64,000 nucleotides of DNA from Candidatus Aminicenantota bacterium (lineage in GTDB: Bacteria; Acidobacteriota; Aminicenantia; S016-38). Under the pieces are notes generated by a model, which ran no database searches, was not told where the DNA came from, and saw only the letters and a list, made by a program, of their open reading frames with translations. Each line of letters starts with the position of its first letter. The stretch's first letter is position 1. Location of the stretch: NCBI GenBank assembly GCA_027068075.1, contig JAMOUJ010000002.1, positions 62,001 through 126,000 of the forward strand, written 5' to 3'. A program made the position numbers and the translations under genes. Shown one piece after another: positions 47,201-54,007 of this stretch.

Positions 47201-47805
47201 TATTTTATGTAATCCCTGGTGTCAATTATCACGGGAAGCCCTCTCAAAATGCACACGAGAACGGTGAGAAAGGCGAGGACGGAGGTCAGAGTGGATATCT
47301 GAGGAAGATAAGCAAAATCTGGAACCTTCTTCCTGAGGAAGAGTTCCAGGCCCATCGTGGAAAAGGCCACGGCCTTCAGAACCGCGTAGGAAGTTCTCAT
47401 GAAGGGCGAGGTCACCAGAAACCTGCTCAGTCGGTTTTTGTGTATCTGATAGGGAGTTTTTCCCTTCTTGTAGGCGGTGGCCCTGAGGGTGTTTACGATC
47501 TCCCCCCGGGCTATCACCAGGATGGCGTACCAGAAACTGGTTATGTGAACCACGGAGAAGTATATCCAGTAAATGTACTCCACTATCCGATCCCCGGTTA
47601 TGTCGTAAAGGGCGCCGAATTCCGTCTGAAGACCCAGTTTTCTCGCCACGAAACCGTCCAGAAAATCAAGAAAGACCACGAAGATTATCAGAAAAATGGC
47701 CGCTATCAGGGTGTAGTAGTTCTCTATGCTCAGCAAGGCCACGGTTACGAAGGCGAGGATTATCCGGGCCGTGGTGATGAGGTTAGGAAGGTTCAGCCTT
47801 TTCAT
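47200..47805 (-). CDS. CDP-alcohol phosphatidyltransferase
   Basis: 201-residue integral membrane enzyme. The full family signature DGx2ARx8Gx3Dx3D is present from D50 to D72 (DGFVARKLGLQ...ALYDITGD). It transfers a phosphatidyl group from CDP-diacylglycerol to an alcohol such as glycerol phosphate or inositol phosphate. With the next HAD phosphatase gene it could form a two-step headgroup pathway, and PgsA-like function is the simplest guess. About five helices are visible. Confidence 0.9.
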   Translation of the reverse strand: MKRLNLPNLITTARIILAFVTVALLSIENYYTLIAAIFLIIFVVFLDFLDGFVARKLGLQTEFGALYDITGDRIVEYIYWIYFSVVHITSFWYAILVIARGEIVNTLRATAYKKGKTPYQIHKNRLSRFLVTSPFMRTSYAVLKAVAFSTMGLELFLRKKVPDFAYLPQISTLTSVLAFLTVLVCILRGLPVIIDTRDYIK

Positions 47806-48715
47806 CTTTCATCACACAGTAAAGAATTTTCAACGCCTCCTCAAAAATTTCCTCCGCTCTCCTCTCGTCCGTAAAAAACCCAGAATTCCTGGATGTCCTC
47901 TGCCTTATTATTATAACATCCACCTCCCTTCCCTTCTGAAATTCCACCGTCAGGTCCCTGTCCTCCACCCCGCATGCCTTCTTCAGATCGGAAAACGCCC
48001 TTCTGGTGGAAAGTAGGGCGGAATAGCCAAACCTCTCCCTGAGGGTCCCGGGCTTGAGTACGATAACGGCGTAAAAATAAGGATATGGCCGGGATTGAAC
48101 CCTGTTGATGGCCACCTGAAACTGAATACCTATCAACCAGGGAGGGGCTTCCTCCGGAACGGCGAAAATCCTGGCGTCCACGGGGACCTTTTTTCCGCTT
48201 CTCACTTCCCCCACCAGAAGTTGAGGGAAAACCTCAAAACCTCCCCTCTTCTCCAGTTTCTCCAGGAGCCCACAGAGGACCCTGGCCTTCACATCCAGGT
48301 TTCCCGGAGTCCACAGGGAAACCCGCCCGGAAAACAGAACCACCAGAAGGAGAAAACCGACATCCAGTATTCCCCAGAGCACGAATTTGTTCCTCACCGT
48401 GGTAATTAGTATCTGCCCTGCCACGGGAAGGAGGAAGAAAAGGAAAAAGGGAAGGATTTTCTTCAAATTCCTTCCCCGGGAAAACTTCTCCGCCACCTCC
48501 GCCTTCTTCTTCAACAGGTCAAATTCCCTGGGGGTGACCGCATCCCACTCCTTATTCCTCACCTGTCGGGGTTTGCCCACGGTGGTCCATGGAACCCACA
48601 GAAGAAAACCAGCCCCCAGGAGAAGGGGAACCCACAGAAACCACGGCCCGGAAGATGTCTGGAGATGATAAGCCACCAGGGCCAGAATCACCGCCAATAT
48701 CTGCTTAAAACTCAA
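47783..48715 (-). CDS. Membrane protein of unknown function in the CHSA/radical SAM operon
   Basis: 310 residues. Two N-terminal helices (about 5-20 and 23-42) and a second pair (about 80-100 and 112-130) frame a basic cytoplasmic loop. A soluble C-terminal domain of about 180 residues follows (residues 135-310), with alternating beta strands and helices: VPVDARIFAVPEEAPP, YPYFYAVIVLKPGT, DVIIIRQRTSRNSGF. I do not recognise the family. The start overlaps the radical SAM gene by 11 bases, so it is probably part of the same system. Confidence 0.72.
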   Translation of the reverse strand: MSFKQILAVILALVAYHLQTSSGPWFLWVPLLLGAGFLLWVPWTTVGKPRQVRNKEWDAVTPREFDLLKKKAEVAEKFSRGRNLKKILPFFLFFLLPVAGQILITTVRNKFVLWGILDVGFLLLVVLFSGRVSLWTPGNLDVKARVLCGLLEKLEKRGGFEVFPQLLVGEVRSGKKVPVDARIFAVPEEAPPWLIGIQFQVAINRVQSRPYPYFYAVIVLKPGTLRERFGYSALLSTRRAFSDLKKACGVEDRDLTVEFQKGREVDVIIIRQRTSRNSGFFTDERRAEEIFEEALKILYCVMKDEKAEPS

Positions 48716-50018
48716 CGGACTTCTCCTTTCCAGGTTTGTTTTCTATTTCCTCGGCTCCCCGGGCCCTCCAGTAGAGGGGACAGGCTCCCCCACAGGCCTG
48801 CTTAAGGTGGCAGGACCGACAGGGCCGGGGCAGGTATTCCATGTTTCTAAAGTAAAGGGCCCCCGGGGAAAACCAGAGTTTTTCAAAGCCTTCCTCCAAA
48901 AGGTTCCCTATCCTCTCCGGATAACTGGAGCAGGGAAGAAGGAAGCCCTGGGGGTCCACGGCCAGAAGCCCGTGGCAGGCGGCGCAGGACTTAGCCCCCA
49001 ACCCCCGGGCCACAGGGTTGTAGATGCAGTACGGAAGCGGTGAATACCACACGAATTCTACCCCTTCCTCTTCTGCCCGTTTTTTAAGTTTCTCCAGGTA
49101 ATACCCCACCCGGGAATAACTCATCCAGAGTTCCCGGTGCTTCATACCTTCGCCCACGGGGATTATCAGGTTGGCGGAGAATTTTCTGAGCCCCAGGGAC
49201 CGGAGAAACCGGGGATAATCCAGCATGCTTTCTGCGTTTTCCGCGTTGATGGTGGTATTGGTGTGGAGGTAAATGCCCTGCCCCATGAGGTTTTTTATCC
49301 CCTCCACCGTGGCCTTCCAACTCCCCACGACCCCGGTAAGAGCGTCGTGGACCTCCGCCGAAGGGGATTCCAGACTAACCTGGGCTGAACCCAGTCCGGC
49401 CTCCCTGAGTTTTCTGGCCACCCTTTCCGTAACGAGGGTGGCGTTGGAGATCAGGTTGACCTTCAGGCCTATGGAACGGGCGAATTTTATCAGGGCGAAG
49501 AGGTCCTCCCTAAGAAGGGGCTCCCCCCCGGTAAAACTTACAAAGGGAACCTCTGCGTCCTCCTTTATTATCCTTATGACTTCCTGGGCCTGGCGGGTGG
49601 TGAGTTCAGGGCTCTCCTTCCAGGTTCTGTAGCAGAAACGGCAATCCAGGTTGCACCGCCAGGTTACGCTGAACTCGGAAAGGACCGGATATGTGTAAAA
49701 ATTTTTCCGGTAGGGAACGAAATCCGTGGCAAAGGCCCCGTCCTCCTTGAAATCTCCCTCCACCAGGGCCTTCAGGTCCCGAAGAAAGTCCAGGGCGTCC
49801 TTTAAAGCCCTTTCTCCCCCTGCCCTCGCCACCTCCTCCAGGCTTCCCCCCTTCATTAAAAAGGACAGGAGGCGAAATCCCGTGGCATTCATGGAAAAGA
49901 CCTGATTGGGGGGGATTATAAGAACCATATCCTTCTGTCGTATAAAGACCAGGTCCTTCAATTTCTTCGCAAATTCCTCTGCCCAGGGAGGAATCAATGT
50001 GCCCCTCCTGAGACGCAT
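48705..50018 (-). CDS. Radical SAM/SPASM peptide-modifying enzyme with PqqD-like N-terminus
   Basis: 437 residues. Residues about 20-90 match the PqqD-like RiPP recognition element (MVLIIPPNQVFSMNATGFRLL, then EEVARAGGERALKDALDFLRDL). The radical SAM cluster is C122, C126 and C129 (CNLDCRFC) with GGEP at 164-167. The SPASM domain has cysteines C345, C348, C363, C400, C403, C409 and C413, enough for two auxiliary clusters. This architecture is that of enzymes that form thioether, C-C or epimer modifications in RiPP precursors. I chose the ATG at 50018, inside the Cys-His-Ser-Ala repeat of the upstream gene; there is no ribosome site, so coupling is likely. The partner tail is the obvious substrate candidate. 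Confidence 0.9.
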   Translation of the reverse strand: MRLRRGTLIPPWAEEFAKKLKDLVFIRQKDMVLIIPPNQVFSMNATGFRLLSFLMKGGSLEEVARAGGERALKDALDFLRDLKALVEGDFKEDGAFATDFVPYRKNFYTYPVLSEFSVTWRCNLDCRFCYRTWKESPELTTRQAQEVIRIIKEDAEVPFVSFTGGEPLLREDLFALIKFARSIGLKVNLISNATLVTERVARKLREAGLGSAQVSLESPSAEVHDALTGVVGSWKATVEGIKNLMGQGIYLHTNTTINAENAESMLDYPRFLRSLGLRKFSANLIIPVGEGMKHRELWMSYSRVGYYLEKLKKRAEEEGVEFVWYSPLPYCIYNPVARGLGAKSCAACHGLLAVDPQGFLLPCSSYPERIGNLLEEGFEKLWFSPGALYFRNMEYLPRPCRSCHLKQACGGACPLYWRARGAEEIENKPGKEKSVEF

Positions 50019-51487
50019 GCGGAATGACAGGCACTGTGACAGGCGCTGTGGCAGGCACTGTGGCAAGCGCTATGGCAGGCGGAATGGCAGGCGCTGTGGC
50101 AGGCGTCGTGGGCAAAGCACGCAGAATGACATGCCTCGGAGGCCATGAAGGACTGGAAGTCCGTGGAGGTTTCAAACTCCTGGAAATTGCTCTGCCAGAA
50201 TACGAAGTGAGGCTGTGAACGGTACCTGGAGTTCAGGAATTCCTGGGGCTCTCCCAGGAGTTTTCGGTAATGCCTTTTGGTGGCTTCAAGGTCACAATCC
50301 CAGGTTTTTTCGGAAATTTTATCGGTGAGAACCCTCAGAAGAGCCTCCACACCCCGGGCCTCAACCCTCCCATCGGGCCCCAGGGCCGCCAGGAAGGCCT
50401 CCTCGTAGTATTTAAGGTCTCCCCTGGCCTGGGGAGCCGGAACCACCCTGGGTGGGTCCTTGGAAAGAACTTCTATGGCCCCCTTTTCCTGAAGCCCCAT
50501 GGCGATGGCCGTGAGAATGGTGTTCACAGAAGCCCCCAGGAGAAACATGGCCTCCACTTCGTCAAGTTTGGCTACCTTTCCTTTCCTGCGGAAACTGTGG
50601 GCCTGTATTCTCGGGGGAACCCAATCGTCCCGGACCCAACTCAGTTCTTCCTCCCGGGCCAGGGCAAGCCTTCTGCGGCGGCTTTTGCGGGAGGCCAGAA
50701 GGGCCGCCATCAAAACCACGGCCATGAAGATCAAATAATAGGGAAGACGGTGTAAGAATCCACCCCGGCCCGGACTTTTCACCCTTCCCTGCCGGGAAAG
50801 GGAGAAGTATTTAGCCGGAAGGTAAACCTGAATCTCCATTTTCTCCCGGGGCAAAAGGCGCTCCCGGTGGAAAAGAACGGAAAAATAGAATTTCCCCCTG
50901 AAGGCCTGACCGAAATAATGAATTCTATACCTCTGGTTCATCCATTTTTCCGTCGTAAACCCAATCCTCAACACATCATCCCACCTCACCTCCTTCCCAC
51001 TTACCTCCACCGGCAGGTGAAGGTATACGGTTTCGTGCTCCAGGGGAGAATCCCACTGGGCGGGGGCCCAGTGAAAGAAGACCAGGCGTCCCCTTTCCGG
51101 GCTTTCGGTGTATCCCATAAACCCTTCCTTCACCAGGTCCAGGGCAAAATTGACCACGAAGTAGTATTCCCCGGGAGGAACTCCCTCTCCGTAAAAGACA
51201 TCGTATCTGGTGGAGGAAATCCTCTTCACTGAAAGAGGATAGGTTCTTCCGGATTCGTCTTTTACGAAACATCCCCCAGGATTAAAATGGGGTTCCCGGC
51301 CTATTCCTTCCAGATAGAAGCCGTGCATGGTCCCGGAACTCACCTTCCAGAAGGTTATGTAGGTAAGGTCTGCCTTCCCGGTAACGGTGGGGGATACATG
51401 GACCTCCACCCATTTGAGGTGGGCCTCCAGGGCCATGAGGGGAAAAATCAGCAATGCCCCCCAGAGGAAGGCCAGAAGTCTCCTCAT
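49994..51487 (-). CDS. Membrane protein with C-terminal Cys-His-Ser-Ala repeat tail (candidate modified substrate)
   Basis: 497 residues. Signal peptide (1-20), extracytoplasmic beta-rich domain (about 22-235, reminiscent of DUF2207), one membrane helix (249-266) and a basic stop RKSRRRR. A cytoplasmic helical domain (about 275-420) follows, with a MFLLGASVNTILTAIA segment typical of DUF2207-like proteins. The last 46 residues carry seven exact Cys-His-Ser-Ala units plus a closing Cys (463-491), two outlying Cys (453, 457) and a final SGGAH. Cys residues are spaced every four positions. The positive-inside rule puts the tail in the cytoplasm, beside the radical SAM enzyme encoded next. AAGGGGG precedes the ATG. 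Function unknown. Confidence 0.88.
   Translation of the reverse strand: MRRLLAFLWGALLIFPLMALEAHLKWVEVHVSPTVTGKADLTYITFWKVSSGTMHGFYLEGIGREPHFNPGGCFVKDESGRTYPLSVKRISSTRYDVFYGEGVPPGEYYFVVNFALDLVKEGFMGYTESPERGRLVFFHWAPAQWDSPLEHETVYLHLPVEVSGKEVRWDDVLRIGFTTEKWMNQRYRIHYFGQAFRGKFYFSVLFHRERLLPREKMEIQVYLPAKYFSLSRQGRVKSPGRGGFLHRLPYYLIFMAVVLMAALLASRKSRRRRLALAREEELSWVRDDWVPPRIQAHSFRRKGKVAKLDEVEAMFLLGASVNTILTAIAMGLQEKGAIEVLSKDPPRVVPAPQARGDLKYYEEAFLAALGPDGRVEARGVEALLRVLTDKISEKTWDCDLEATKRHYRKLLGEPQEFLNSRYRSQPHFVFWQSNFQEFETSTDFQSFMASEACHSACFAHDACHSACHSACHSACHSACHSACHSACHSACVSGGAH
50015..50101 (-). repeat. Twelve-base coding repeat (Cys-His-Ser-Ala)
   Basis: Seven 12-bp units plus one terminal Cys codon, read on the minus strand. 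Codons vary between units: Ser uses AGC, AGT and TCC, Cys TGC/TGT, His CAC/CAT and Ala GCC/GCT/GCA, while the protein stays constant. That points to selection on the peptide, not to a simple DNA repeat. Confidence 0.9.
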
Positions 51488-51505: not shown

Positions 51506-54007
51506 CTATTTGGTTATCCTTAATCCAAGTATGACCTGTCTGGGGGGATAATACCATCGGGGAGACAGAAATTCGGGCTGAAGGACATTCTCCCATTCCT
51601 CGGCGGGAATCCGGGTGTTGAAGAGGTTCAGGGCCCGAAGGAAGACCGCCGCCCGGAATCCGCCCAGGGAAAATTCCCTCTGGAGATAGGCATCCACCCT
51701 CCACCAGGTGGGAAGTTTGAATTCCCCCAGGGGGGCTGCAAGCCCCCGGGGATGGTCGTAAAGACCAGGCCTAAGCGTTTCCGTATCCACATAGTTGACG
51801 GGGATCATGTAACCGTCCCTGGCCCTGAAAACTCCACCCAGGGTCCACCCGCCGCCGCTCCAGGCCATGTTGAAGAGGACTGACCAGCGGGAATTTAGAA
51901 TGGGACTGTGGTAAAATCCGTTGGGCGACGGTCCCCAGGAACGGGAAAGGAGAAAGTTAAGGTTCCCAGGATCCAGGGGATAAAGGTTTTGATTTATGGT
52001 GAAATAATTGGACCTGAGGTTGAACTGAAAAAGGAAAGAAAGGGTTCCAGATTTTTTAAGCCTGAACCGCATCTCCTTCCAGGACCTTTCCACGCTGATT
52101 AGGTTTAGGGTTTGATAATAACCGTTGAAAAACACCCCTTCCCTGAGACCGAACCACTTCTGCCCCCCGAATTCCATGGGAAAATTGCCGCCTTCCTCCC
52201 AATCCCCCCAACTTACCAGTTTCCATTCTTCGTCCTTCCACACCAGAGGAATGTCCACATAGGGCAAAGTATTCTTTATGTAAAAAAGGTCCAGATCCAC
52301 GGAAAGGCCCAGGGGAAGGTCGGAACTCACCCCGGCGCCGATTCTGTAAAAACGGGAGGCTCCCAGCCCCGGCGGATAAAGGGATATGTCCTTCTGGCTC
52401 GCCTGGGCCGTGTAGCGATAAAGTGAGGTAAATTCACCCTCCTGGGGAAGCATGTCCCCATCGTCGTTCCACAGAAATTTCTCGTAGGACAGGGCGGAAG
52501 AAGCCCTGTAAAGGAGGCTTTCTGGAAGGGGAATCCCACGGTAGGAACCGTAAATCCTTATAACTAAAAATCCGTTTCTGAAGGGATCGTAGGAAAGACC
52601 ACCCCGGAGTCCCAGAATTCCTATAATCTTTGAGGAAAAGGATGGAACCGAGGTCCCCTCCAGGGAAAGTCCGAAAATTTCCGAGTTCCGGGATGAGGAA
52701 GGATATACTTTAAACCACTGGAGGTCGTATCCCGTGGAAAAAAAGAGGTTAACATTGCCGGCGGCGATGGTGTCGCTCAGCCAGACTCCGGCAGTATTAA
52801 GCCTGTAGTGAAAGGCATCTGAGGTTCTGAGGTAGGCGAAGCCGGCTTCACCGGCGAAACTCACCAACTCCAGGGGCCAATCCCTTTCTCCCTGGACTTC
52901 CCTGCTCAACACCTCCACCCCCACGGCGAAAATATTGTTCAACCCCAGGAAGGAAGAGGAATGGAAGGTCATGGAGGAGTTTAAGGAGAAAAGTTCCTCC
53001 TTCAGGTCCTCCCGGTAATTGCCTCCGTCCTTAATAAGATTCACATCGTCAAAGAGGAAATAGGGAGAAGGGGAAACGGGATCAAGATTCCTCTTCCGGG
53101 AAAACTCCGCCACCGTCAGGGAAAAGCCCCCGGCGTTCAAACTCCCCCCGAAACCCCTCTCTCGAACCTGACCGTTCCAGGAGGAGGAAGGCGAATAATA
53201 GGGTCTTTCCCTCAAATTTTCGTAATCTTCGCCCCGGCTCAGGAAAAATCCCCTGACCCCCCCGGCGAAAAGGGAAAGGTAGAAGGAGTGTTTCCTTACG
53301 CTCTGTTCTTCAGGTAAGGCGAAATCCCTGTTCTCCAGAAGACCTGAGAAGAATCCCCCAAATCCCCCCTTCCTGTAGCCTACCTCCCCTTCCAGATAGG
53401 GGGACATGGAGTAAGACTCCGCCCTGTCCTCCCGGGAGGTTCCCATAAGGAAGGTGGTCAGGCGAAAACCCGGGGAAAGGGCCGGACGCTCCCATATCCT
53501 GACCCTGGCCCGGGGGTATCCCACGGAAACCTCCGCCCTTTCCACAGCGGGATAGGGTATGGCGCCGGAAAGGGAAGATGCGGAGGAGAGCATGTATTCC
53601 GTCCGGGAAAGTGCCTGAAAAAACAGGGTCCCCCGATAAAAGGACAGGTCAGGGCTGAGGAAAAGGGCCTCCTCCAGGGAAGGAGCATCCTTCTCCAGTT
53701 CCGCCCCGGGAGATTCAGGGAAATTCCGGGTGATGTAAAAGGTCTCCTCAACCCCGTCCACCCAGAGTATGAGGAAATCCCCCTTAACCCGAAGCGTGCC
53801 GAAGTTCCTGCCCTCCACCATCAGGGAATAGGCTCCCTCCTTCACTCCGCTAACGAAAAAGAAACCTCCCTTTTCGGTTTTAAAGGAGACCTTTCCCAGG
53901 CTCAATTTCACCCCCTCCGGCTTTCTTCCCTCCGGAGGCAGGTAAATCCCGGTAATGGTGGTGGCAAAAATTCCCGCGGCAATTACGAAGAAGGCCAGTC
54001 TTCTCAT
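51506..54007 (-). CDS. Outer-membrane TonB-receptor-like (Oar-type) barrel protein
   Basis: 833 residues. A signal peptide and a short carboxypeptidase-regulatory-like domain (residues about 20-95) are followed by a region that is weak as a TonB plug (about 100-165). A large barrel runs from about 165 to the end, closing YYPPRQVILGLRITK. The Oar/OmpA-like family in acidobacteria and myxobacteria looks similar. A clear TonB box is not visible, and the plug appears short, so active transport is uncertain. Its start overlaps pepA (ATGA). Confidence 0.75.
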   Translation of the reverse strand: MRRLAFFVIAAGIFATTITGIYLPPEGRKPEGVKLSLGKVSFKTEKGGFFFVSGVKEGAYSLMVEGRNFGTLRVKGDFLILWVDGVEETFYITRNFPESPGAELEKDAPSLEEALFLSPDLSFYRGTLFFQALSRTEYMLSSASSLSGAIPYPAVERAEVSVGYPRARVRIWERPALSPGFRLTTFLMGTSREDRAESYSMSPYLEGEVGYRKGGFGGFFSGLLENRDFALPEEQSVRKHSFYLSLFAGGVRGFFLSRGEDYENLRERPYYSPSSSWNGQVRERGFGGSLNAGGFSLTVAEFSRKRNLDPVSPSPYFLFDDVNLIKDGGNYREDLKEELFSLNSSMTFHSSSFLGLNNIFAVGVEVLSREVQGERDWPLELVSFAGEAGFAYLRTSDAFHYRLNTAGVWLSDTIAAGNVNLFFSTGYDLQWFKVYPSSSRNSEIFGLSLEGTSVPSFSSKIIGILGLRGGLSYDPFRNGFLVIRIYGSYRGIPLPESLLYRASSALSYEKFLWNDDGDMLPQEGEFTSLYRYTAQASQKDISLYPPGLGASRFYRIGAGVSSDLPLGLSVDLDLFYIKNTLPYVDIPLVWKDEEWKLVSWGDWEEGGNFPMEFGGQKWFGLREGVFFNGYYQTLNLISVERSWKEMRFRLKKSGTLSFLFQFNLRSNYFTINQNLYPLDPGNLNFLLSRSWGPSPNGFYHSPILNSRWSVLFNMAWSGGGWTLGGVFRARDGYMIPVNYVDTETLRPGLYDHPRGLAAPLGEFKLPTWWRVDAYLQREFSLGGFRAAVFLRALNLFNTRIPAEEWENVLQPEFLSPRWYYPPRQVILGLRITK

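Follow-up and report, generated by a model that had tools for sequence, protein, structure and literature searches.

A Radical SAM/SPASM Enzyme in Aminicenantia Probably Modifies the Fixed Cys-His Tail of a Full-Size Inner-Membrane Protein

In the 64,000-nucleotide stretch of contig JAMOUJ010000002.1 analyzed here (the window), which belongs to a 1.9-Mb genome whose close relatives are Candidatus Aminicenantes metagenome-assembled genomes (Acidobacteriota), we describe a cassette of two to three genes in which a full-size inner-membrane protein with a Cys-His tail is the probable substrate of a radical S-adenosylmethionine (SAM)/SPASM enzyme that modifies this tail. All three genes lie on the minus strand: the tail protein gene (49994..51487, a 497-amino-acid open reading frame [ORF]), the enzyme gene (48705..49997, 430 amino acids from a TTG start), and a third gene (47783..48715, 310 amino acids). 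An earlier interpretation made from the DNA letters alone (the sequence-only reading) had treated the first two as a pair and overlooked the third. Its central proposal, that the tail is the substrate of the enzyme, we regard as very likely, as it is supported by the co-inheritance of tail and enzyme, by selection on the tail at the protein level, and by the SuiB-like anatomy of the enzyme, which resembles that of maturases of ribosomally synthesized and posttranslationally modified peptides (RiPPs).

The tail itself (aa 453-497, CHSACFAHDA(CHSA)7CVSGGAH; 49997..50131, minus strand) is the most conserved segment of the protein. The seven exact CHSA units and further Cys residues noted earlier, on a 497-residue membrane protein whose gene overlaps that of the radical SAM enzyme, were confirmed on the sequence; the units span aa 463-490 (50018..50101, minus strand), their register and number are fixed in relatives, (CHSA)x7CVSGGAH is immediately preceded by SEACHSACFAHDA, and the last 45 residues hold 10 Cys. 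Tandem Repeats Finder reported the array with a 12-bp period, 6.5 copies, and 81% DNA matches, and the units differ by synonymous codons (AGC/AGT/TCC, CAC/CAT, and TGC/TGT) that leave the protein the same. An alignment of 13 full-length homologues shows invariance in 33 of its final 35 columns, compared to 38 of 576 elsewhere, and a 35-residue core, CH[SD]A(CHSA)6C followed by VSG[GS][AGS]H, is equally long in all 17 genomes that carry it, which represent six families. A set of 11 genomes from families f1 and f2 share exactly the same final 35 residues, with synonymous sites near saturation (pS about 0.73 within f1). This comparison is reported in place of a codon-level ratio of nonsynonymous to synonymous substitution, which was not used for the tail because switches between Ser AGY and TCN codons inflate it. 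Read backwards, the CHSA pattern gave no match in 396 genomes; together with identity across saturated synonymous sites, this argues that the tail is not a product of chance. Overall, these comparisons indicate that the tail is under strong selection at the protein level, its length included. Separately, matches to the CHSA pattern on IMG/VR viral contigs (L144, L145, and L146) consisted of (CNSA)/(CHSA) runs of variable, unstable length in an ORF starting PDGRLSVQSA; these ORFs lack the context of the tail protein and were set aside as unrelated to the cassette.

Co-inheritance of tail and enzyme was evaluated mainly in an even sample of 396 Acidobacteriota genomes, using an enzyme profile (A1) at a threshold of E<=1e-75. 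The CHSA pattern was present in 10 genomes and the CACACAGCACACAGG pattern in 19, giving 29 tail genomes; the enzyme was likewise found in 29, and 27 were common to both. In the two tail genomes outside this overlap (G169 and G265), an enzyme does lie next to the tail gene, with a lower score or truncated where the contig stops, and in the two enzyme genomes outside it (G008 and G173) the neighboring protein ends ...CACACVSCACACACAGGGGAGC..., a third Cys tail. For the 396 genomes, a genus-level Fisher test of co-occurrence returned a p of 4e-21, a value that ignores phylogeny and is descriptive only, since the genomes are related. In a class-level sample, the CHSA tail and the CHSA-type enzyme each occurred in 15 genomes, of which 14 had both. 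The CHSA-type enzyme was found in 18 genomes, with the tail gene adjacent in 14 and on another contig in 3 (G007, G012, and G015). Distances between enzymes correlated with those between membrane proteins from which the tail had been removed (r of 0.95 and 0.97). Together, these sequence data indicate that the tail protein and the enzyme are a conserved functional unit. The sequence-only reading had named homologous enzymes without a CHSA-tailed neighbor as the finding that would speak against it; within the CHSA clade, a single exception among the 18 genomes emerged (G052). Beyond that clade, sister clades lack CHSA, but their neighbors carry fixed Cys tails of their own, which strengthens the reading of the tail as substrate.

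In a sister clade of enzymes, the pairing is equally strict, and the partner is a homologous membrane protein whose C terminus reads CACACACAGCACACAGGGR (the CACA type). The CHSA and CACA membrane proteins are homologous over their length (to residue 411 of the window protein; hhalign, 99.5%) and have a common layout of signal peptide, beta domain, transmembrane helix, RRR, helix-turn-helix (HTH)-like domain, and tail. As CACA tails contain Cys and no His, a chemistry common to the two clades would sit on Cys, Ala, or Gly. On a maximum-likelihood tree of 40 enzymes, whose deep joins are unsure owing to long branches, the tail label requires only the minimum of three changes, and the comparison indicates that enzyme clade matches tail type. 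The distant genome G272 has a mixed tail, (CHSA)6CA(CHSA)2CVSSCAGSF, in a 1,045-aa open frame (L080:4540-7677) that is possibly an intermediate between the CHSA and CACA types. The CACA system, a DUF2207-like membrane protein with the invariant tail followed by a radical SAM/SPASM enzyme, was observed in 19 of the 396 genomes (loci L119-L132, L134, and L085-L089; e.g., L119:3037-5954), and some of its enzymes carry N-terminal transmembrane helices of their own. Directly upstream of the CACA-tailed protein, 13 of 16 loci encode a 107-aa protein (e.g., L088:7274-7597) with a hydrophobic N terminus and a zinc-ribbon-like CxxC...CxxC arrangement, for which no Pfam match was found. In the third tail type, a protein of 317 to 322 aa lies directly downstream of the enzyme and has SCACACVSCACACACAGGGGAGC near its C terminus (L133:6673-7626 and L135:3974-4942).

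The enzyme matches Radical_SAM (PF04055) with 90.5 bits against a cutoff of 29.5, and its CX3CX2C motif (C122/C126/C129, counted from ATG 50018) is invariant in 40 homologues. SPASM (PF13186) scores 29.2 bits against a cutoff of 21.5 and was detected in all 10 members scanned; the domain (CX9GX4C ... CX2CX5CX3C; 48807..48977, minus strand) keeps six of the seven canonical Cys invariant in all 40 enzymes and lacks the last, and an additional Cys upstream of these is nearly invariant in the CHSA and CACA enzyme clades. Thus, of the domains assigned by the sequence-only reading, the radical SAM and SPASM domains were recovered above Pfam cutoffs, and the PqqD-like one fell below its cutoff in the window enzyme. 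That N-terminal domain, a putative RiPP recognition element (RRE) at approximately 49734..49961 (minus strand), is assigned from PF05402 and from a profile match to the RRE protein TfuB1 in the PDB (E=0.0013). The family profile matches SuiB (PDB 5v1q) over residues 31-419, and also SkfB, PqqE, and CteB. As judged from these matches, the enzyme has the anatomy of a RiPP-type maturase; by score, it falls within no curated maturase family. No NCBIfam equivalog cutoff was reached; the best scores were to NirJ2 (145 bits) and heme b synthase (142 bits), with cutoffs of 500. A heme or nitrite-reductase role based on similarity to NirJ2/AhbD was rejected on these scores, as was a defense role, because PADLOC matches reflected only the generic radical SAM core of viperins.

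The start codon of the enzyme is probably TTG 49997, which overlaps the stop of the tail gene as TTGA, is preceded by an AGGAGG embedded in the codons for the VSGGAH of the tail, and corresponds to the start used in related genomes. The alternative, ATG 50018, adopted by the sequence-only reading, is probably too early. In f2 the enzyme gene is located elsewhere and VSGGAH is nevertheless the same, which speaks against the embedded ribosome-binding site as the sole reason for keeping these residues.

The 497-aa tail protein comprises a signal peptide, an extracytoplasmic beta domain, one transmembrane helix, a cytoplasmic helical (HTH-like) domain, and the Cys-His tail. The single transmembrane helix (aa 248-266; 50690..50746, minus strand) was identified by hydropathy and corresponds to helix 244-276 in the structure model; because RKSRRRR follows it directly, the positive-inside rule would place the C-terminal domain and tail in the cytoplasm, on the same side as the enzyme. 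This topology supports the cytoplasmic location that had been suggested earlier. The model assigns a second hydrophobic stretch (314-332) to the HTH-like domain, and in relatives charged residues break it up. The AlphaFold model of the tail protein is poor (mean predicted local distance difference test [pLDDT], 64); it and the model of the third protein were each built with six sequences. The beta domain weakly resembles M1-aminopeptidase N-domains and ribophorin I (TM-score of about 0.25-0.29).

Based on these features, we propose that the signal peptide and single transmembrane helix would insert the membrane protein and leave its C-terminal domain and tail in the cytoplasm. The enzyme would recognize this substrate through its N-terminal PqqD-like domain, perhaps at a conserved TD[FY]xSFxxS[ED]A stretch that precedes the tail or at a site within the cytoplasmic domain. 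By means of its SAM cluster and SPASM clusters, it would then work repeatedly on eight Cys spaced four residues apart. The likeliest products would be Cys-centered (thioether) cross-links, with His- or Ser-centered C-C or C-N links or other oxidation as alternatives. Cys-centered bonds are favored because sister tails keep Cys without His and because PapB makes thioethers at Cys-X3 spacing (PMC9413430), and we would give them slightly less than an even chance. The modified tail presumably stays on the protein, as no protease is conserved with the cassette, where it would serve as a fixed-length structural, metal-binding, or redox element; with its 8 to 10 Cys and a similar number of His, such an array could bind metals or carry redox equivalents.

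Several observations weigh against this interpretation. Ala, Ser, and His at the tail positions fit no known acceptor motif, as PapB uses Cys-X3-Asp/Glu (PMC9413430), and the tail segment was modeled without confidence (AlphaFold pLDDT of about 30). The PqqD score of the window enzyme is 14.8 bits, below the Pfam cutoff of 23.4; a sister enzyme, L132, passes with 31.9, and fused RREs are known to be missed by PF05402 (PMC7470986). G052, a fragmented 90% draft, has the enzyme and the third gene with no tail found, and G018, a 97% complete draft, is the only one of 18 CHSA-tail genomes without a detectable enzyme. In f2, tail and enzyme genes are unlinked, on different contigs. That arrangement would suit a plain metal- or cluster-binding Cys-His array free of covalent modification, with the enzyme an operon neighbor acting elsewhere, for example, on a tetrapyrrole or another peptide; regularly spaced Cys and His might bind metals unaided, and the best NCBIfam matches of the enzyme are NirJ2 and heme b synthase. 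Those matches lie far under their cutoffs, however, and the enzyme has a putative PqqD-like N terminus and a full-length SuiB-like match. Moreover, tail type follows enzyme clade across three types, and co-occurrence survives where the genes are unlinked, with three of the four f2 genomes retaining both genes and an unchanged tail. We therefore consider an unmodified array unlikely.

Somewhat less likely still is that the enzyme acts through His, by His-Xaa-Ser or triceptide-type chemistry (C-C or C-N bonds), with Cys serving only as a metal ligand. Within the CHSA tail, His recurs with the same regularity as Cys, and each unit includes H-S-A, but the sister tails have no His, and the enzyme scores 66.7 bits against HxsC (TIGR03977), whose cutoff is 267.9. 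The modified region of RiPPs is usually C-terminal in a leader-core order, and the tail occupies just that position, as expected if the membrane protein were a precursor whose modified tail is cut off and released. This appears improbable, as no protease or exporter accompanies the cassette from lineage to lineage, the upstream M17 peptidase is restricted to f1 among the loci examined, and the remainder of the protein is both large and conserved, features not called for in a disposable leader. Finally, a 12-bp tandem array could arise as a functionless low-complexity expansion, by slippage or as a codon microsatellite. Slippage is excluded by the fixed unit number (in 17 genomes) combined with scrambled synonymous codons; the amino acids are almost invariant, the viral CHSA runs are by contrast variable and unstable, and the present data refute this explanation. 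Modification of the tail by the radical SAM/SPASM enzyme thus remains the preferred interpretation.

The third cassette gene encodes a protein with about four transmembrane helices, a conserved C-terminal alpha/beta domain, and a conserved RQxT...G[FY]xT motif. Its family (profile A7) was found beside the CHSA-type enzyme in f1, f2, G052, G063, G065, G135, G136, and G145 and twice in G200; in f2 it is the enzyme that it stays with, the tail gene lying elsewhere. Neither G272 nor the CACA loci yielded a detectable member, and no confident relative of the family emerged. A Foldseek search with its model (pLDDT 79) returned nothing at E<0.05, with a weak match to the type III chaperone-like Spa15 (E of 0.17), and two family members weakly match PF20990 (best E of 0.0019), which we take as a lead only. 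Conceivably, the protein assists the enzyme or anchors it at the membrane.

Where contigs were long enough to judge, family f1 showed a fixed order of M17 peptidase, TonB-receptor-like protein, tail protein, enzyme, 310-aa protein, CDP-alcohol phosphotransferase, and HAD hydrolase; the sole departure was a small additional gene before the tail gene in genus g2. Outside f1, the tail protein, enzyme, and 310-aa protein remain together, and the other neighbors vary and look unrelated. In the window, an outer-membrane receptor-like protein of 833 aa (51506-54007), seen in f1 loci only, lies 18 bp upstream of the tail gene; it gave no NCBIfam match and, in Pfam, only a subthreshold CarboxypepD_reg match.

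Most known cases of radical SAM/SPASM maturation concern small peptides, along with a few enzymes, and here a whole family appears dedicated to fixed, Cys-dense tails of conserved membrane proteins. Because enzyme and tail types are matched, the substrate hypothesis can be tested directly. That the tail does not vary in length suggests that it forms a defined structure. More tentatively, and with somewhat greater doubt than we attach to the bond type, this family may write enzyme-specific, fixed-length structures on cytoplasmic membrane-protein tails, with at least three tail codes (CHSA7, CACACACAGCACACAGGGR, and CACACVSCACACACAGGGG) matched to three clades, the product being a permanent, protein-bound, cross-linked metal or redox element and not a released peptide.

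Known systems resemble the cassette in part. RiPP precursors are short leader-core peptides released by a protease, a definition that a 497-aa membrane protein does not fit. Ranthipeptide and sactipeptide maturases join Cys through a thioether to the C-alpha, -beta, or -gamma of an acceptor residue. These maturases and SuiB (PDB 5v1q, 5wgg, and 6efn) resemble the enzyme here in their radical SAM and SPASM domains and in a PqqD-like N terminus, which is putative in the window enzyme, but act on small peptides with leaders; PapB, which makes six Cys-X3-Asp/Glu thioethers (PMC9413430), has a substrate with multiple Cys at X3 spacing like the tail here, whereas the Asp/Glu acceptor is missing from CHSA units and the enzyme scores 76.8 bits against the PapB model (cutoff, 340). 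The CXXX-repeat system also places Cys-Xaa-Xaa-Xaa repeats beside a radical SAM enzyme, but its target model, TIGR04117, covers 98 positions and describes a small peptide; it did not match the window protein, and one relative reached 23.4 bits (cutoff, 50) through the repeat only. His-Xaa-Ser systems share His and Ser in a short repeat and a radical SAM partner, and are expected to have two paired enzymes (HxsB/HxsC) and small HxsA/HxsD proteins, which were not seen here. Membership in either system, raised by the sequence-only reading, is not borne out, with scores far below cutoffs. No curated model covers CHSA or CACA tails, or this enzyme type, above cutoff beyond generic domains. DUF2207 (PF20990) membrane proteins are similar in architecture to the sister CACA protein, of which L119 matches at E of 0.001 (19.2 bits; cutoff, 33); the window protein gave no match.

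The closest published idea concerns TIGR04222 membrane proteins and MNIO enzymes, for which Cys-rich, low-complexity C-terminal tails were proposed as substrates of a neighboring RiPP-type enzyme (Antoine et al. 2025, PMC12452194). The notion that a full-size membrane protein could be a substrate, considered unusual by the sequence-only reading, is therefore not new. In sequence, TIGR04222 weakly resembles the cytoplasmic domain of the present protein (E of 0.11), and the TIGR04222 domain scores 12.1 bits in the window protein against a cutoff of 43. Those tails are Ser/Gly-rich, diverse, often without Cys, and predicted to be periplasmic (PMC12452194), whereas the present tail is one fixed sequence with a topology that would place it in the cytoplasm; the enzymes also differ, being MNIO (PF05114) there and radical SAM/SPASM here, and PF05114 had no match in the genome holding the window, while two control genomes did match. 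A literature search found nothing on CHSA or CACA tails, or on CXXX-repeat or DUF2207 proteins paired with such a radical SAM enzyme, with thin coverage of subscription papers that makes an earlier description possible. Our results connect DUF2207/TIGR04222-like membrane proteins with a further type of modifying enzyme that is independent of MNIO, and this suggests that such proteins may have modified Cys tails in general. For MNIO, the idea of a Cys tail modified on a membrane protein is already on record; its radical SAM version with enzyme-matched, fixed tails appears to be new.

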